A stretch of 64,000 nt of DNA from Neolentinus lepideus HHB14362 ss-1. Its lineage: Eukaryota > Basidiomycota > Agaricomycetes > Gloeophyllales > Gloeophyllaceae. The translations under genes and the position numbers were made by a program. The stretch spans positions 129,203 through 193,202 of the forward strand of contig KV425585.1 in the NCBI GenBank assembly GCA_001632425.1. The letters are read 5' to 3'. The notes under the pieces are model-generated. The model had not been told where the DNA came from. It was given only the letters and a program-made list of their open reading frames with translations, and made no database searches. Shown here piece by piece: positions 22,725 through 35,666 of the stretch (its first letter is position 1; each line of letters opens with the position of its first letter).

Positions 22725-22732
22725 TATATAAA
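22725..22732 (+). promoter_or_regulatory. TATA box of chorismate mutase
   Basis: TATATAAA, ending 38 bp upstream of the ATG at 22771. Confidence 0.6.
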
Positions 22733-22770
22733 GGCGGCCCACCGGGTTAATCAGAGCAACTAGTGCTATC

Positions 22771-23927
22771 ATGCAGTCCAACTACTCTGTCGACGAGGAC
22801 CCGCTTTCGCTCAATAGGATCAGGTCTGTCCTGACTAGGCTCGAGGACACCATCATATTCAGTCTAATTGAGCGCGCACAATTCGCGCACAATCCCATGA
22901 TATATCAGAAGGGGGCTTTCAAGGAGTTGCGAGATATGGGGTTTGAAGGGAGTTGGCTTGAATGGTTCTTGAAAGAAACAGAGACCTTCCATGGTATGTG
23001 AGGTCCGTATCTGCGGCTGCGTTTTGCTCAGGTTTATCTTGCGCCTAGCGAGGGCACGTCGATACACCAGGTTGGTGATTTGCCTCGCAATTGTCCTACC
23101 CTTATTTATCGGTCGACAGCCCCGATGAATACCCTTTCACGCCTCTTTCTGATTTACCCTCTCCTGTGTTGCCACCCCTCGTGTTCAAGCCAATTCTGTA
23201 TCCGAACGGCGTCAATGTCAATCAATCGATTCTAGCTTTCTACACTAAGGCCATCGTTCCTCGCATAACGCGACAGGCAACCCTCAAGCTCGCAACGAGC
23301 AAGCGGGCCAAGGGCATCTCGGGCGCAGACGAATTTGAAGACGATGGTAATTACGGGAGTGCAGCAACGCTTGATGTGGAGGTACTCCAGGCGATCAGCA
23401 AGCGAGTGCATTACGGTATGCATCAACAATGTTATCACGGTGATTGACTGATGTTTTATTTTGCCTCCGACACATGTCCCAGGCAAATTCGTGTCGGAAT
23501 CCAAATTCCGCTCTGCCCCATGGGATTTTATCCCTCACATCCAGAAGCCCAACCCAGCCGCACTGGATGCTCTGATCGTCAAGCCTGAAGTTGAACAGCG
23601 GTTACTTCTCCGATTGCGCAAGAAGGCCATCAATTATGCTCGTGACACCACGGAGTCAGAACCGCCACCTTCACCCCCTTTGCCCAATGAGGCAAATGGT
23701 TTAAATGGGACGAATGGTGTCAATGGCTTAAACGGGAAGATCGACGTGGACGGAGTTGTGGAGCTGTACGAGAACTATATCATTCCTCTTACGAAGGAAG
23801 TCGAGGTCAGTCGAACCATACTCATACATCTATTTGCCCTTACCACGAATTTCAGGTTGAGTACCTCATGCACCGCCTTGATGGATTGTCTCAAGATGAA
23901 ATAGAAGAGTTAGCGAAGCGACAATAA
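22771..23927 (+). CDS. ARO7: Chorismate mutase (AroQ, eukaryotic type)
   Basis: Five exons. The enzyme turns chorismate into prephenate, the branch point to Phe and Tyr. The N-terminus [20 protein letters not shown] with [13 protein letters not shown], the [17 protein letters not shown] junction, the [18 protein letters not shown] helix, [30 protein letters not shown], and the ending [20 protein letters not shown] match the all-helical ARO7 family. The small second exon was placed with the acceptor TAG before CGAGGGCACG because only that keeps frame. The protein carries an extra loop of about 30 residues with repeated Asn-Gly pairs between the last conserved helices. Family members are activated by Trp and inhibited by Tyr; those sites were not verified. 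Confidence 0.93.
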
Positions 23928-24238
23928 TGGTTTGTATTTCGAGTCAAATGTATCCTTCGCCTTTCCTTGCCGTGTGTGATAGACCGAATGTTAGACCTGA
24001 GAACGTGAAGAGCGGGCGAACCCGCTAAAGTACAAGTTTTAGGAAAGGCAGGTAAGATCGCATTACAAGGGGAAGCACGATAATGTACAACCAGCCAGCA
24101 AATTCCGGCACTGAAATATGTAATAAAAACCTGAGAATGTAAGAGCGGAGTACAGCTGCAGTAAACGATGGTCAGAGTGGAGGGGGTATCAAATCCGGTG
24201 ATAGGGTTAATAATCCAGGCAAATATTAGAGAAAATAA
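23928..24238. other. Convergent 3' region
   Basis: 311 bp between the chorismate mutase stop (+) and the septin-like gene stop (-). AT-rich, with no ORF of note; probably both 3' UTRs. Confidence 0.6.
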
Positions 24239-26486
24239 TCATAATCCAAGATCTACGAACAGAATGTGAGTCAACAAGAACACCTAAATGAAGCGATATA
24301 AATGCACCTTCCAGCAATCGCTTTGTCTCGGTCTCACTGATATTGTGCGTTGCACGTCGCGCAAGCAATTTATCGGTCCTATACTTTTCATATAGAACTT
24401 CACGGGTGTGAATTTTGAGAACCTACAATCGGTCGCATTAGGGTCTAGGCAGCTGCACGAGGTCATTTAATTACGAACTTTCATATGGGTTGATAAAACG
24501 GCGGTACGCAGTGCAGCGAAGTCGCAATGATCTGGATTCAGAACATCGACCGTACCCCACCTGAACTTGCGGACAAACACGCCTTTGAGGTCTTCAGGAG
24601 GACCCTGCAAGTAAGGCATGCTTCGGGCCGAGACCGACGAATACGTGGACGGCGCAATCGGCGATGTCAAAGAATCAGTCACACTCATCGCATGCCCGTC
24701 TTCGGATGGGGACACTAGCTGACTGTCCCGCTCTGCGTCCGACGAGACATTGCGAAGGTGTCGATGGCCGCTCTCGGGACTGATCAATGCGAACGGCAGA
24801 AGTGATACCAGGTCGGTTTTCGCGACTACGTGCGCCGAAAACCGCACATTAGCCACGCTCTCTTTGTCTGTAAGATCCGGCGTCAAGGGCTCCCGGTCGT
24901 CCCCATCCTCAGAAGTTTCGTAACGTGAACGGGACCGGGAACGCTTCACTCTTGCGCTTCCGGTGCTCATTGATCGCAGTTTGATTATAGGCCGTGCTTG
25001 GCGGCCTGCGTTGTTCTCTTCCCCTTCATCCTCTTTACCATCTGCATTCTCGGAGAGCTGTCCATTGCCGTTCGTCGTAGGCACGAGACCATTTCCGTTC
25101 GCATGGCCATTCGTCTGGTGCACGAAACTGCTATTATCATCAGGGTCTCCTGAGGGCCCGAAAACTCCAAAGTCTAGACCGGCTTCGTGAAGACCCCGAC
25201 GAAGCGCTTTCTTGACTTCGGCCAGTTTCTCATCGGTGAGGGAGTCGGCACGAGCGATGACAGGTAGGACATTAACGCGTGCTGATAGACGCCTGATGAC
25301 CCTGAGGTCAGCAGGAGATAATGTTGGGCGGTCGTCTTCAGCTCCATCGTCGTCTGGCTCAATGTCCTCAGTCGTGATTGACAGGTCTTGCGCGCGATAA
25401 GTGATGGTCGTCTCGGAGCGGGTCTTTGTAGGCAGTGAAGACTGCGCTCTTCGGGCTGATACGGGAATGATAGAACTGGGGTCAACCATGTATATGCACC
25501 TGCGCGGAGGATTAATTACCAAAACTTGGAGAGCCCAGAAAGATAACATCACGTACAAGTGAATGTGATGATCGCCTTTGCTCTGCCGAACAACTTTTGA
25601 CTCCTGAAGCGAAGGGAGCAAAGTTTAATAAATCATGGAACAGGACCAGAATGTGGAACGGCGATGGAAGGAATCCAACAACACGAACCTCGTTCAAGGT
25701 ATCCGCAAATAAAGCGTCCACGTACTTCACAATTCCTGTCACTTGTCTGTCCAACTTCAGCTCGCGACCCTCTCGAAAGTCAAGACCTGGGGTATCAATA
25801 ACGGAGAATAGCACCCGGTCAAATCGGGACTCGCATATCTCGACACAGGCAGTCTGTATGTTTTGAGTAGACTTCAATTTCACATTCAAGAAACGGTCGA
25901 CGGCAGCCCTCTGGTCAATAGTGGCTGTTGGGGATATGTCTGCGGTCTCTAGAAGCAGTCTGAGCAAAGAGGTCTTTCCAGTTCCTTGGCCCCCTACAAC
26001 CTATGCTCATAGACATCGCCATTAGATTAGTCATAGGGATTTAATTCATCTGTAGCGCACCATTAGGTTGAACGTGGGCGGTAAACGGGGCTTCCGAACG
26101 CTAACTCTAGTTCTGCGTGGGGCATGACCGGGAGACCGCCAGCTGTCGAACGCAGAAGGTGGTGGCGGTGATGTCATGTACAAGGACGATATGGAAGCTC
26201 CTTCTTTCTGCACTGACCCTGGAGTACCATTTGACTGTCCTGGAAAGCCTCGAAACGGTTTGTGGAATGGAATGGGGGCGTGGTCGCCGACCGATAGAGA
26301 ACTTTTCACCGCACCTTGATGAGAACGTTCGGGGAGAGTACTTTGACGTATAGTATCGACATCGACTAGATTCTCGGGCCACGGTATTCCCTGAGACTTG
26401 AGCTCAGGCAGTGACGGCGAGGTGCGAACCGTGACGGTGTGGTCCTCCCTCTTAGAAGTGGATCTGCGACGGAAACCGAGGACCAT
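24239..26486 (-). CDS. Divergent septin-like GTPase
   Basis: Six exons (26486-26061, 26000-25689, 25603-25557, 25499-24479, 24422-24308, 24252-24239), all phases consistent, give 644 residues. After a disordered N-terminus of about 140 residues comes a P-loop GGQGTGKT (145-152), DTPG at 211-214, a septin-like ESKVVRQSKGDHHIHLCIYM, and VNVLPVIARADSLTDEKL with ARAD in place of the usual septin AKAD. About 200 disordered acidic residues interrupt the G domain before RWGTVDVLNPDHCDFAALRT, THMKVLKIHTREVLYEKYRT and a short C-terminal helix. The last exon is only 14 nt. A role with the septin cytoskeleton or membranes is inferred, not shown. It is a paralogue of the first half of the next gene upstream. 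Confidence 0.85.
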
Positions 26487-26878: not shown

Positions 26879-29800
26879 TCAGTGGGGTTCAGGGACCATG
26901 TCCGGGCTGCCTTCGAGGCGCATTTTCTTTGGCGGGAGTTGTTGCTGAGCATCGTGAAGACTTCTCTTCAGGTCTATGTCACCCTCTCCGTGACTCGGTG
27001 GCGCCCTTTGACCGTAAGTCATATGAGGCGCTGAAGCAGGGGTAGGCGGAGGGGGTGCTTGAGACGGAGGAGGTGATGATTGTGACGCTTCCAAAGCGGG
27101 TGCCGCAATTTTTTTCTTCCGAACGGGTCCTGACGGACCAGTAGGGTCATTCACATAACTGCACTGCAGAGACCGGCGGGCGCAGCTGGAACACGAAGGA
27201 TGAGCGCCATCGCATTTGGTTTTGCGGGCTAGAAGGTACCAAATGAGTGAGCCGATGGAACGGGGAACATTCAAAAGGTAAACTTACCTCGACAGAAATT
27301 GCAGGCAACAACCTTGGGTCCGTATTTCAATGATCTGTGGCCCTTGCGAGGAGGCACAGTTGCCCTTCTCCTCGAGGGACTAGGCAAATCAGGCTCCGTC
27401 CGTATAGGTGGCAGAGTTAGATCAGCATGCGCTGAACTCGAGCTGGAGATGCCAGTGACAGGGGTGGGAAGGGCAGCTATATGCGCAGGATCGTCGGTCC
27501 TGTAACTGGCTGAGTGAGGGCCTGGAAGGTTCGGCTTGGGAAGTACCAACGCAGGTAATCGTGGGACGTTCTCCCGGCGGTCTAGAGAACTAGTCAGATG
27601 GCCAGACCCGGGAAGAGGTTCCGTTAGGAACATGTTCACGTTCGAGCCCTTCCTTGACATTGGTCTCGAAGGTATCTCTGGAGATTGTGAATCGTGGTCC
27701 AGCGATTGATCGTCGTCGCAACTAGCGGATTCGCTGTCAGAATCATCTTGCTTGCGAGGCTTCCGAACACCTCCTCGCCGCATGTTCGGCATGTAGTCGC
27801 AAGGGTTCGACCTTTTGACACATTGTCCGCACGCGGGCCGGCCACCGTCGCACTTGAGCTTGCGAGCTGTAGAAGAATTAAATCATAGCAAGACAGAATA
27901 AGGCTTGGGACACGTACATCGACAGAAATTGCAGGCCACCGTGATTTTCTTTGGTCGTTGTTTCTGCGATGTTCCTGCGCATGTCATTATGTTAGAAACC
28001 TATGCATAACATCGTGGCACTCCTGGCGTCGCCGGGGGAAAATGTGGTCGACCATGCAATTGTAAAATACTGACTTGTACCGGTTGCGATGGTCTTAGCA
28101 GACGAAGTAGAGATTACAGACTCTGGTCCCCTCATAGGACTGCGACGTGTGTCCACAGTCGGAGGAGGGAGTGCAAGCGAAGCATGCCGAATAGCAGCAG
28201 CCTGATTAGATGCCGTGTCTATAGCCAGGATCGGTCGCGAAGCCTGCGACATCGAAGGATTAGGCCGCGCAGGTGGAGGCAGTGAAATCTGTTGCAGTGG
28301 ATGGTATGTGACTTGTGGTTGGAGACTTTCCATAAATTTGCCCAGTAAATATTCTTTTGTGTAGTTATGTAACGTCTACCAGTGGTACGAGAGTTGCGAT
28401 AGGTAAATAGACGGGGAAACGATAGAATGAGGTGCTCACCTGCATGTGATGAAAGATAGCAGTCCGTAGGTACAAGAAATCGCTGTGATTAGGATCCAAG
28501 ACATCCAGAGAACCCCACCTGTAGCAGCGTGTGAACCTGCCCATTTCTATTTTACACGAGGGAGAGTGACCCTTAACGATTGCACGGTGATTTGAAGGAG
28601 TGTATTGATGTACAAGTTCATGCCGGGAAGGAGCTGGTCTGGCTACACCATCGTTGTGACAATAAATATCGGGAGACATGACAGCATAGGGCAGTCGGAG
28701 GGTAGCTGGCACAACCGGAGACCCTGGAGGAGATGATGTCGCGGAGGGACCATTCCTGTTCGAACGTGAAGCGAGCACGTTCGCCAAGTTACCGTTCAGG
28801 GGCTGTGAACCTGCATCCTTATGTTGCACGTACTGCGGATGAATATTCTGAGGGGACAGGGCCATATCGAAAATGCCAAACCCGATTCCCGCCTCAGCCA
28901 AATCCCTACGAATCGCCATCTTGACTGAAGCCAGACGTTCATTTGTGAGCGTATCAGCCCGCGCAACCACTGGAAGTACGTTGACACGAGCGGACAACCG
29001 CCGAATGGCATTGATATCCGCTGCGGGGAGCACTGGTCGGCATAGGTCGGGGTTCGTCGTGACAGGAGGGTCGAGAATAACCGGCTCCGCCTCAGAATGA
29101 GACAGGCTGTTCGTCCGAGCACGAGACACGACGGGCATTGGAGGAGTTGGGATAGACATGGGAACGATTACGTCGGGGTCCAGGAAATACACGCATCTGG
29201 TGGTTCAGGATGAGAACTAGGCGGCGAGGGAGGGATCAGAATACGCACAGGTGTACATGGTGGTCACCGTTTCGCGCCTTGTTCTCCTGGTCGGTCCGGG
29301 ACAGTATTATGAGCGCGCACGCGCCCTGAGAAGCGATAAGGACTCACGTCTTCCGCACTTTCCGCGAGCCTAGACTCTACATGCCGTTGAATCTCTGAGG
29401 TGAGCCTGTCTGATGCGGCCTCGTCGTCAAAGTCGAGGGAGGGCGTGTCGATGAGGGTGAGGGTGAGCGGGTGGGACGGGGCATGTTCTCCTGAATCATA
29501 GTCGACATCAATTGATACCGTTCTGATATTGCCCGTGTGGCCGCTGCAGCCTTGGACGAACTTGGCGACGGAGGTGAGCTGCTCGGACGTCGCGGTCTGG
29601 GCTACGAAGCTGGTATCGAGGAGGAGACGGAGAAAGGCAGTTTTGCCGGTGCGACGGCCAGCGACCATGAGGGTGTACCCGCTGTAGGGGTCGGTGGCTG
29701 GACGGGCTGTGATGGGGGTGAGGAAGAGAGAGGGCATGTGGTTGGGGCGGGCGTGGAGGGGGGGCAGCGGGGGGTCGCGGTCGTCGTCCTCTTGCTTTGC

Positions 29801-29905
29801 CCAGCGGTCCCCATGGTCCATGACGGTGGGCGTCGTCGATGGAGGCCGAAACGGGGCTCTACCGACCAGTCCGGGGAGAAGCGATTGCGGGGTCTGTACC
29901 GGCAC
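26879..29905 (-). CDS. Septin-like domain fused to two tandem Zn2Cys6 domains
   Basis: Seven exons (29905-29348, 29286-29249, 29196-28440, 28375-28081, 27974-27918, 27866-27288, 27228-26879) keep one frame and give 877 residues. Residues about 80-470 mirror the neighbouring septin-like protein, but the guanine-nucleotide motifs are weakened: AGRRTGKT at 82-89 lacks the first P-loop glycine and DTPG is DTPS (153-156); VVARADTLT stays. HHMQ/TLHNYTKEYLLGKF matches THMK/VLKIHTREVLYEKY of the paralogue across the same phase-0 intron, which carries the frame into the zinc-cluster part. Cluster 1 (about 564-592) is CNFCRSRKLKCDG...CGQC...C; cluster 2 (about 757-785) is CNFCRARKTKCDG...CSSC...C. The tail is disordered. 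Alternatively, two genes with a start at 28333; the shared intron argues against that. Confidence 0.75.
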
Positions 29906-30206: not shown

Positions 30207-32131
30207 TTACCCTTGTCGAGTGGTGGGATGATCATCATTATTGTCCTGGTCCCGTGAACGCGGCGGCCTGCCACTCGCATGTCCCCGACGATCTTCTCCG
30301 GCGTACTCGAATCGTTGCTGCGCGTCCAAGACGTGTTCTGGTAGGCGTGGTGTGAAACCGCTCCGAGGCACGTTGGCCGATGTGGGACGTTGGCCGAGCG
30401 GATATCTTGACGGCCCCGGCGCGGGCAGCTGCAGCGGAGGGAATCGATGGCTGGGTGGCGTGATGGGCTCGCCGTGTATAGACATGCTGCTCAGTAGCGT
30501 AGGATCTACCGTCAGCGGAGGTGGCGTGTGCGCTGGCTGTTCCGTCGAGCGGCGCGTTGGGCGACCCGGCGGGTTGTAGAACGGATCGGAGCTGTCCACA
30601 GGCCTGAGCACCATGCGCGGATCAGGTGGCGTGTGCGAGGGAAGCGCCGACGTCGTCGACCGTGCCCGCGTCTGTTTCTTGCTCCCTTTCTTAGCTTTAC
30701 CTGGGCCTCGCCGTCGAGGGAACGGTTCGTACGTGCACTCCGCGGTAGTTCCGTCGGGTTCTGGCTTGCGTTTGGCGCAGTTGCTACAAGGTTTCTTCCC
30801 ATCACAGCGAAGCTTCCTATCTGTAGCGTGAGACGGAGCGGAACACGTCGATTGGCGTCCAAAATTAGGAATCGTTTGAAATGGAAGAAAGTCTACAAAC
30901 TCACGCCTACAAAACCAGCACGCCACTTCTGTTTTGGTTTTCCGGGCCTTCGTGATTGGTGTTACATCGGGATTCGTAGCTAGTGCTTCATCGTCGTTGT
31001 CGTGTTGACGTCGTTTCCCCTTGCGCACGCTGGAAGATGCCTCGGTTGAAGGCACGGTGACTGGACTCGGCCCTCGCGCAGTCGAAGGATCGGATGTCCT
31101 AGCGGCCGAGTCCTCTGGCGTACCTTCACGGTCGTCAGTCTGTGAAGGGCCCTCGTTGGGAAGCCATAGTTCTGGATACAATGTGGCCGATGGCGAACCC
31201 ACCGAGCTTGCGCTACTCGGTACCGGCTCTGCACCATATTCTGACCTTCCGCTGGTAGACGAACCTTCGTGTGGAATCGACCTATGTCGCTGCATAACCA
31301 ATGCAGAAGTAGTGCGACGGCGCACTGGGCGTGATCCGCTGGCCTCTCCGGTATTTGGGAAACGATCGTAGCCAGCCGGAGCCTCTTCATAGGGGCGATC
31401 AGCAGCAGCTAAACCGAATAGTCCCTGGACAGCTTACCGCGAAAGGTATCATGACCGTACCTCGACGAGCTCCCTTCGACGAAATCCACCGGAGACAGAA
31501 TAAAGGACCCCTGCGCACTGTAGCGAGGGCTGCTGTCAGAACTACCGGCCCGTCGCTCTGTGTAGAGTCCCATACTCCCAATGTCTGTTCTGATCGAAAG
31601 CACGTCCGAGCCATAGAGGTCAGGCTGACGAATGCGGCTTCCCTGGCTGGTTCCAAGGTCGTAAACCTGTCTGTCACCCGGGGGGGACGCCGATCGCTCT
31701 CTGCCTATGGCCCATGACCGAACTGGTCGAAGCCTCGCCTCTGCAGTAGGTGCAACCGACATGGACCCAGGTCTATAAACATAGTTACGGGGATCGGTCA
31801 CACCAGCCGTGGTGGCACCATGGTGAATGGAAGAAGAAGAAGACCCCTCCACCTCCAGACCCTCGATTCCCGGACCCGCGCCTGTCGAATGAGGTCTGTA
31901 CGACGGGGGTCGAAAACTAGCAAATCGTAAAGGAAAGGTGGGTGGCAGATCGGCCGGAGGGGTTCCCTGCGGTTCGACGGGCGTGGTAGGGATAATGTGG
32001 CTGCCAGAAGAGCGCGCACTCGCACCGGATCCTGGTCGTGATTGCTCTGGTTGATGTGATGCCATGACTATGTGGTCGTGTAAGCTATCTGGGAGACTGC
32101 TCGGTCCCCCGCCTCCTTGCTGCCTATCCAT
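30207..32131 (-). CDS. Zn2Cys6 DNA-binding protein with an elongated last zinc loop
   Basis: Three exons (32131-31438, 31384-30905, 30820-30207) give 595 residues. The first 380 residues are Ser/Pro/Arg-rich and look disordered. The cluster begins at about residue 387: CWFCRHRKLRCDGKKPCSNC, then 13 residues before the sixth cysteine instead of the usual 6-8, then YEPFPRRRGPGKAKKGSKKQ, a basic linker. The intron splits the cluster after the CxxCR codons in phase 1, exactly as in both clusters of the neighbouring fusion gene. No fungal-specific transcription-factor middle domain is recognisable. The start at MDRQQGGGG is chosen because upstream in-frame sequence is Cys-rich and unlike the protein. 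Confidence 0.8.
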
Positions 32132-33292
32132 CGTGAATATCGACCTTTTCCTGCGCCCCACCTGTCGAGGAGTTAATCGCGAGGCTCGTTCGGCGAGTCC
32201 AGAAGCAGCTAGCAGCGGGATGTCGCAAGAAAAACGGAGACAAGGGTCGCAACACGCCAGGCGTCCCATACGTCGCTAATGGACTTGTGGCAAGATGAGA
32301 ATTATCTCGTTCCAAATTTTCACGGCGCAGAACAAAGGTCCGTCTGTGATCGCGGTCCGTGGCCAGGGGGCTAGCATGGACTGAATAAGACACTCCGCAT
32401 ATTAGGTTTGGATCCGGTGTGGGCGTCGGGGGGCGCAAAAACAAATCGCGCGACAACTGTAGTGAACGAGCCGACGACGACGAGAGGTCCCCCGATCCTT
32501 CCGGGATTCACAATTGAGTCCCGCGAGCTGCAAAGGGATGGAGGGCGAGAGACAGGCCCCCTAATCTCGTCGGTTTACGATTATTTTGATCTCGACCGAC
32601 CGGCTTCTTCCCGCCAACAACGTGTGGGCACTATTTGATGTGTTGCTATTCGGACTTGTTGCGAATACACGAGGCTCTCAGTCTACACGTTTTGGCACAT
32701 CACTTTGTCTGCATTACTTGTAGGTGCTCCTGATAACATCCGCCACAAGCACTGGCCGGTGGTTGCATAACCACCTCCGAAACACGATCGGGTCAGCAGA
32801 TCTTTTAGGCAGCTAATCTTTACTTAGATAGCCCCTAAGCTCCCCAATATGTGCAACCAGGTCCCATCTGCCGGTAGCGTCCGTCCGTCCCCATCATATC
32901 GCCTCTGCCCGCCTGCCACGTTTTTTACATCTGCAATGCGGTCTTTAAAATATTCTTTCAACATAATAAAATATTTCTTTCTCAACCACACAATAAATAT
33001 TTCTTTCTCCACCGCCCATCCCGACACATCCATTACCCACCCGTGCCCTCGATCCACTCAATTACAGTTCCTGCTCGACCGAAACACATGGCCAATTTTC
33101 TGCACCCGAAACATCCTCCCAGAGAATTTCCAACGCAGTGCTACGGAGAAGGCGCCGACCGCTATCGGGCCTGCCAATCATAGCCCTGGGAATTTCGACA
33201 CAGACCCGCCCGAAAAGTGTATTGCTGACTAAGCGAAAAGTGACTCTAGGTTCGCGCAGTTGCTGAGAATCCAGGACTCGGTCTCGTCCAGG
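32132..33292. other. Divergent intergenic region upstream of ILV3
   Basis: 1.16 kb between a minus-strand zinc-cluster gene and plus-strand ILV3. It becomes AT-rich around 32930-33010, with repeated AAATATTTCTTTCTC-like text (about 32967 and 32993). No gene could be supported. Confidence 0.5.
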
Positions 33293-35666
33293 ATGCCAGT
33301 CATGCGCCCAAAGGCTGTATTGCGGGCATGCCACTGCGCAAACGGCCCAGCATCACGATGTTTCAGTACAGGTGCTCCTGTCTCCGATGGGAAACCCATC
33401 ATGAATCGGTACAGTAGGATTGTAACGCAACCGAAAAGCCAAGGAGCTAGCCAGGTATTGTTCCGTGTGTCAAGCGAGATCTGGGGTTGACACGACCGAT
33501 ATTAGGCCATGCTGTATGCGACCGATGGTATACAGAGCGATGACGACTTTAACAAAGCTATGGTTGGGGTTGCCAGTGTGTGGTGAGTGACACCCAGCCG
33601 GAAATTCAGAGCGCCCTCATTAGCTGCGCTAGGTACGAAGGGAACCCGTGAGCAACCACTTTGCATCGGATCTACGTCCTCGCATTCTCAAAGTGCCACA
33701 GTTGCAACCGCCACTTGCTGGGCATCGGTCAGCGTATAAAAGCTTCTCTAAATGAAGCAGGCCTCATCGGTTACCAGTTCGGTACTGTCGGTGTCAGCGA
33801 TGGTATCAGCATGGGCACCAAAGCCATGTCCTATTCTCTCCAGTCGCGCGACCTCATTGCCGACCAAGTCGAGACGGCCGCTGGAGGGCACTGGCTAGAT
33901 GGCATGGTCGTCGTACCAGGCTGTGATAAGAATATGCCGGGTGTCCTGATGGCATGTTAGCCGCCCTTCCCTCATATGCGTCACTCGATAGCACTTACAA
34001 CTAAGCTCTGTAGTGGGACGCCTGAATAGACCTAGTCTGATGGTATACGGCGGAACAATACGACCAGGTTCGTGCGGCGGTGGCACGTTGGACATCGTCT
34101 CTGCTTTCCAGGCATACGGAAAGTATCTGCAAGACGGTAAGACGTCTCAAGCCGAACAAGAACGTTACAACACGATCCGGCACGCATGCCCAGGTCCTGG
34201 AGCTTGCGGTGGTGTAAATGTCTCATTTATTTCCAGACACCGAGAAATTGAAATTAGTCGCCTAGATGTACACGGCGAACACCATGGCGAGTGCGGCCGA
34301 GGTGATGGGTATGACCCTGCCTGGATCCTCTTCGTTCCCGGCCGAGTATAAGGATAAGCAGGACGAATGCGATACTGTCGGCGCGGCTATGCGTAACCTG
34401 CTGGAGAAGAATATTCTTCCCAGGGATATCATGACTCGTTCCGCATTCGAGAATGCTATGGTACACACGAAATCAATCTATTGGAGGCCAATACTCACGA
34501 AGATCTGGTTGTGTAGGTACTCACGATGATCTTAGGCGGCTCCACAAACGCTGTTCTGCACTTGATTGCCATCGCCCACTCTGTAGGCATCGAGCTGACC
34601 CTTGAGGACTTCCAAAACGTCTCGGACCGTACGCCCTTCATCGCCGACCTCAAACCCAGCGGCAAGTACGTGATGGAAGACGTCTCCACGATCGGTGGTA
34701 TCCCTAGTCAGTGCCTGCTTCCTCCAAGGACTTGTTGTGACGTATTGAAGATCGCGTCTGTCAGAAATCCTGGCATATCTCCTTGAGAAGAAGCTAATCG
34801 ACGGCAATAATATGACGGTTACTGGCTTGACGCTTGGCGAGAACCTTGACCGGTGGACCCACAAGTATGGCAAGCTGTCCTTCACGGAGCAGGACGTTAT
34901 CCGGCCTTTGGAGAAACCGATTAAGGAAACCGGGCACATTAGGTGAGCGGTCTACCCAAACCCCTCTGTAATGACCATTATACCGACAGGCTCCTATAGA
35001 ATATTGAGGGGCAACCTTGCCCCGGGTGGCGCTGTTGCAAAAATCACAGGCAAGGAGGGACTCGAGTTCACCGGTAAGGCCCGCGCATTCGACACCGAGG
35101 ACGACTTCGTCAAGGCCGTCGAGAGCGGTTCCATCAAGAAGGGCGAAAAGACTGTCGTCGTTCTCCGCTATCTCGGCCCGAAGGGTGGACCAGGTACATT
35201 CTCCGTTCCCTCTCCTCCTTTCAGCTCCTATACGTTAACCCCCACGTTTGTAGGAATGCCTGAGATGTTGAAGCCGACGAGTCTTATCATGGGCGCTGGT
35301 CTCGGTCACGATGTTGCCTGCCTGACGGATGGGCGGTTCAGCGGCGGGTGAGTGGTGATATTATGTTTGCTTTAATTCAGTTCAGTGTGCATGTATGTAC
35401 TCACCGACGATAGATCCCACGGGTTTGTGATAGGCCACGTCGTGCCTGAGGCTCAGGTTGGCGGCCCTATTGCGCTCGTTCAGGACGGTGATGTTATCAG
35501 CATTGACGCAGTCAAGAATTCGATTGAGGTCCTTGTCTCGCAGGAAGAACTGGAAAAGAGACGCAAGGCCTGGGTCGCCCCGCCACTGAAGGTCAATCAG
35601 GGGACGCTTTACAAGTACGTGAAGGTCGTTGAGGACGCTAGTCATGGATGCATCACAGACGCATGA
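33293..35666 (+). CDS. ILV3: Dihydroxyacid dehydratase, mitochondrial
   Basis: About eleven exons, roughly 600 residues. ILV3 dehydrates dihydroxy acids in the third step of valine and isoleucine synthesis in mitochondria, using an Fe-S cluster. The start [18 protein letters not shown] looks like a mitochondrial presequence; the ORF upstream has no ATG. Conserved text: [114 protein letters not shown] and [14 protein letters not shown]. The cluster cysteines in PCNRH, GCDKN and GACGG are all present. One internal exon is only 15 nt (33633-33647), needed to encode W-YEGN-P. Confidence 0.95.

Follow-up and report, generated by a model that had tools for sequence, protein, structure and literature searches.

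Septins are cytoskeletal proteins; one that carries DNA-binding domains and has been retained across several mushroom orders could directly link cell architecture to transcription. The closest described system is PoZCP55 of Pleurotus ostreatus, which was reported in 2020 to contain three septin domains and two C-terminal zinc cluster domains and to form a separate clade of the zinc-cluster tree; the main text of that report mentions the protein three times, namely, for its architecture, its place in the tree and its C-terminal position (PMC7295025). Here, we describe a gene with the same domain order and number, to judge from the description of PoZCP55, encoded on the minus strand of a 64,000-nucleotide stretch from Neolentinus lepideus HHB14362 ss-1 (contig KV425585.1, positions 129,203 to 193,202; the whole of this stretch is the window below). 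An earlier note, made from the letters of this DNA, had pointed to the gene and knew of no description of a septin joined to a fungal DNA-binding domain, a claim that PoZCP55 overturns; it also looked to the Polyporales for relatives, when the lineage of N. lepideus is the Gloeophyllales. For one species, this architecture has been published before, in the main text of PMC7295025, and this lowers the novelty; the family-wide pattern keeps the interest. In the open papers searched, with subscription papers and supplements outside reach, the architecture was seen in PMC7295025 only, and no function, family-wide conservation, synteny, linked paralogue or motif loss was found; the main-text passages on PoZCP55 in PMC7295025 likewise contain nothing on family conservation, a paralogue, synteny or motif loss.

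The join between the septin-like part and the zinc clusters is real in N. lepideus, where the two belong to one fused gene, and, as the homologous proteins indicate, this gene is conserved across several mushroom orders. With moderate confidence, we read it as an old Agaricomycete gene that couples a septin-family pseudo-GTPase domain to two Zn2Cys6 clusters and whose product would be a nuclear transcription regulator dimerized by the septin-like domain. Concrete predictions follow from the fused state, from the pairing with the neighboring gene and from the absence of the G3 glycine throughout the family.

Gene structure and the septin/zinc-cluster join

The fusion gene consists of seven exons that keep a single frame between the start codon (ATG at 29821) and the stop codon at 26879 in a GT-AG splice model, in which every intron starts with GT and ends with AG and no internal stop occurs. 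The same seven-exon path from a septin-like G domain into two zinc clusters had been proposed in the earlier note and is borne out by this model and by the Pfam hits; the length of 877 residues given there was not reproduced, the product being 851 residues long from ATG 29821. This start aligns with residue 1 of the Heliocybe orthologue P0001, and no further in-frame ATG was found upstream of it, between 29911 and 29822. The parts of the gene are the following.

26879..29821, minus strand: whole fusion gene, coding part, 851 amino acids (splice model; Pfam Septin and Zn_clus; 84% identity over 99% of the length to the top relative, Heliocybe sulcata P0001)
29348..29821, minus strand: exon 1, with the start, the P-loop (AGRRTGKT) and the altered G3 (DTPS) (splice model; motif counts)
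29249..29286, minus strand: exon 2, septin-like G domain (positions and phases of the flanking introns match the neighboring gene)
28440..29196, minus strand: exon 3, with G4 (ARAD), inserts and the septin unique element up to HHMQ (splice model, alignments)
28376..28439, minus strand: phase-0 junction intron, which splits the last septin helix (counterpart at 24423-24478 in the neighboring gene; homology on both sides)
28075..28375, minus strand: exon 4, end of the last septin helix (TLHNYTKEYLLGKF) and linker (splice model, alignments)
27918..27974, minus strand: exon 5, first half of zinc cluster 1 (Pfam; splice agrees with 10 of 11 relatives compared)
27288..27866, minus strand: exon 6, second half of zinc cluster 1, linker and first half of zinc cluster 2 (splice model, Pfam)
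26879..27228, minus strand: exon 7, second half of zinc cluster 2, C-terminal tail and stop (splice model, Pfam)

A longer variant, represented by the Heliocybe annotation P0001, that retains part of intron 28074-27975 was rejected; the extra residues are absent from 10 of 11 relatives, including the 80%-identical P0003.

A domain search of the product, which the earlier note had called for, places both families above their cut-offs: Septin scores 97.4 bits over three stretches (cut-off 26.2) and Zn_clus 71.7 bits over two (cut-off 21). With E up to 0.01, Pfam yields no family besides these two, and Fungal_trans was not found. The Septin profile also matches all of the 60 relatives rescanned (E up to 0.001). 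A homologue search with the fusion protein found 196 relatives, and both domains are present in all of the best 120, at 42-84% identity; the architecture that the note had sought in relatives is present in several orders. Example relatives among the matches listed belong to Gloeophyllales, Jaapiales, Atheliales, Russulales, Boletales, Polyporales and Agaricales and include Pleurotus pulmonarius P0053 as well as Volvariella volvacea P0052, the record of which is titled 'Zinc finger transcription factor'.

The two local arguments on which the join had originally been based are also upheld: the phase-0 intron at 28439-28376 has its counterpart at 24478-24423 in the neighboring gene, and exon 28375-28075 continues past residue 438, the Met at 28333, with no stop. 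Moreover, septin homology and the predicted septin fold extend beyond this intron into exon 4, in frame with the zinc exons. Two relatives, P0077 and P0096, come from cDNA-like contigs that are too short for six such introns and, to judge from their lengths, appear to be spliced mRNA holding the whole frame.

The rival account holds that two adjacent genes, one septin-like and one with a double zinc cluster, were merged in error by gene prediction. Annotation at this locus lends it some color, given that some public genomes carry split or merged gene models here: Grifola P0310 is a split model that opens with the Met of HHM/QTLQKYT, and the models P0250 and P0251 begin just past cluster 1; mergers join the fusion and the septin-like gene in P0004, P0005 and P0103, and an extra upstream cluster and the fusion in P0012 and P0066. 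Besides the split models, two circumstances weigh against a single gene: the homologue search was confined to proteins 0.55-1.75 times as long as the query, so that short split models are under-counted, and no fused N. lepideus protein is among the matches listed, though its septin-like neighbor was. A query with the zinc part (344 amino acids; matches of limited length) gave 109 matches, 4 of them with both domains; among the five organism-named matches that lack a septin domain, P0250, P0251 and P0310 look like pieces of the fusion, the others being P0327 and P0341. We nevertheless reject the two-gene account as highly improbable: septin homology crosses the junction intron in frame with the zinc exons, the two short contigs leave no intron space, and the two domains occur together throughout the best 120 relatives.

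State of the septin-like domain and the zinc clusters

The state of the motifs was counted in an alignment of 121 rows, comprising the fusion and the best 120 of its 196 relatives. A septin G-domain fold is predicted for the fusion, and the GTPase motifs G1, G3 and G4 are not all intact in the family. The P-loop (G1) is kept, with Lys60 in 116 of 121 rows; the glycine of G3 is lost, the motif reading DTPS in 117 and DTPA in 3 of the 120 rows with a letter; in G4, the Asp is kept throughout (120/120), and the position of the Lys of AKAD holds Arg in 97 rows, Cys in 16, Lys in 6 and Thr in 1. The description of this domain as degenerate, which came with the original proposal, fits the altered G3 and fails for G1. 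In other GTPases, the switch and hydrolysis should suffer when the glycine of G3 is missing; because of this analogy, we infer that the septin-like domain of the fusion is a putative pseudo-GTPase.

PMC6323724 reports that residues R360, W364 and H374 of Cdc3 are shared by the different septin groups. By our own mapping, based on spacing, their counterparts in the fusion are R394 and W398, present in 121 of 121 rows, and H408, present in 110 (Gln in the remaining 11); the septin G interface residues are, so far as this mapping indicates, kept.

An insert in the G domain, residues 181-226 (within 29196-28440), is unusually well conserved, with a mean majority share of 0.80, compared to 0.72 for residues 47-180, and contains RARTNS-type serines, a possible regulatory or phosphorylation site.

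In the zinc clusters, each of the 12 cysteines is present in 117-120 of the 121 rows, and the basic residues of both clusters are nearly invariant across the alignment. Cluster 1 matches solved chains of Gal4 and Cyp1/Hap1, and cluster 2 matches that of Ppr1; a basic KKMR motif near the C-terminus belongs to the consensus of the fusion family. All these features speak against the idea that the clusters no longer bind DNA and that the protein is a cytoplasmic septin-like scaffold in which they serve as metal or protein-binding modules. Such a scaffold would suit the presence of two C-terminal clusters with no Fungal_trans match, which is unusual for a Zn2Cys6 regulator; on the whole, it seems quite improbable to us. 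A stricter regular expression, applied to the 120 listed relatives, found two clusters in 105, three in 2 and one only in 13, and these 13 detract from the double cluster as a family-wide trait.

The linked septin-like gene and the origin of the fusion

The fusion gene is flanked by two genes that share its domain types.

24207..26486, minus strand: septin-like gene, unfused paralogue, downstream on the same strand; 3' end approximate, as P0121 ends differently (splice model; Pfam Septin, 154.9 bits)
30207..32275, minus strand: upstream gene with one Zn2Cys6 cluster (about 30953-30687, intron 30904-30821); ends approximate (open reading frames; spliced cluster; Zn_clus, 41.3 bits; merged models P0012 and P0066)

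Over 640 amino acids, the septin-like neighbor is 100% identical to the N. lepideus HHB14362 record P0121. It is 36% identical to the fusion over 272 columns and has three intron positions and phases in common with it, namely, the junction intron (phase 0) and the two preceding ones (phases 0 and 2). The earlier suggestion of a derivation from the septin system holds in that the fusion is a paralogue of this adjoining gene. The order of Zn2Cys6 gene, fusion and septin-like gene is also present in distant relatives, as seen in the merged models P0004, P0005 and P0103 on one side of the fusion and P0012 and P0066 on the other. Among 64 species picked from the best-120 listings of both families, 61 have the fusion and the septin-like protein on an equally long contig; the exceptions are Serpula, Dichomitus and Lentinula raphanica, where the rows for the two proteins could derive from different strains or assemblies. 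Serial locus tags could be read in both listings for six pairs, and are consecutive in four, the Amanita AX17 pair being 2 apart and the AX15 pair 12 apart.

This linkage across orders, together with the retention of R394, W398 and H408, could be taken to favor a tethered regulator. Outside the nucleus, its septin-like domain would bind either the neighboring septin-like protein or filaments of septins; once the protein is set free, its zinc clusters would be able to act on DNA, such that septation or cell shape would be coupled to transcription. Gene linkage, however, can last for other reasons, and we consider tethering unlikely.

The septin tree was built from 18 fused and 18 septin-like rows, both hand-chosen, and 4 core septin rows that were assigned as a set by Pfam matches, without individual names. 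The fused and septin-like rows fall on one side and the four core septins on the other (100/100), and the fusion does not group with a core septin (Cdc3, Cdc10, Cdc11 or Cdc12) of the same genome; the septin-like rows are not a clean group in this tree. The simplest history may be a tandem duplication of the pair of Zn2Cys6 gene and septin-like gene, which would have produced the order Zn-sep-Zn-sep, followed by fusion of the middle sep and Zn genes, after which the zinc cluster would have doubled. Several results sit uneasily with this history. The fusion sits on a long branch (2.61), which is placed next to Rickenella (96/98) inside the septin-like rows; the length of this branch leaves the duplication undated, and the placement may be a long-branch artefact. 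The zinc-cluster tree, with 44 usable columns, does not settle where the zinc clusters came from, and an intron seems to interrupt further zinc clusters of this genome at the same point (their matches begin at profile position 7); because of these two points, derivation of the clusters from the upstream gene is a guess.

As for other zinc clusters, two Zn2Cys6 stretches, C48:107846-107941 (L018) and C131:4161-4256 (L019), encode identical protein over the part compared, on different contigs, and a near relative lies on C89 (L032); these would be either recent duplicates or one repeat assembled twice. In the window, exons of an ILV3-like dihydroxy-acid dehydratase lie at 33652-35351 on the plus strand, where three open reading frames match Pfam ILVD_EDD_N or ILV_EDD_C. 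Open reading frames at 22732-23904, also on the plus strand, presumably resemble fungal chorismate mutase; two single frames scanned there gave no Pfam match. Rfam (at gathering thresholds) and ARAGORN gave no matches over the window.

Putative function and comparison with known systems

Under the preferred reading, that of a nuclear regulator dimerized by its septin-like domain, this domain would bind GTP or GDP without a working switch and would dimerize the fusion protein, either as a homodimer or together with the septin-like protein encoded by the neighboring gene, such that the paired zinc clusters would sit on DNA; anchoring of the regulator would be an alternative role for the domain. 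Because no Fungal_trans domain was found, the septin domain probably substitutes for the usual dimerization and regulatory part. A bolder version, which we offer as a doubtful one, would make the septin-family domain the sensing and dimerizing half of a transcription factor that pairs with the septin-like protein of the neighbor, the three-gene cluster then being a conserved module of Agaricomycetes through which the condition of septin-like assemblies, such as those of septation or of hyphal or fruiting-body shape, would be signaled directly to genes.

Compared to known septins (PF00735; core Cdc3, Cdc10, Cdc11 and Cdc12, Group 5), the fusion has the G-domain fold, the P-loop, the residues of the septin unique element and the last helix. 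Unlike septins, it lacks the G3 glycine, mostly has Arg in place of the G4 Lys and contains long inserts within the domain, and where septins have a C-terminal extension, it bears zinc clusters. The septin-like neighbor family differs from the fusion in the following: it has no zinc clusters, keeps the glycine of DTPG in 121 of 121 rows (this gene and 120 listed relatives) and ends in a septin-type YRTEKL segment. With Gal4, Hap1/Cyp1 and Ppr1, the fusion shares the six-cysteine cluster with basic residues, as attested by the sequence matches to their solved chains; in contrast to these regulators, it has two clusters per chain, located in the C-terminal half, no Fungal_trans match and a GTPase-type domain in front.
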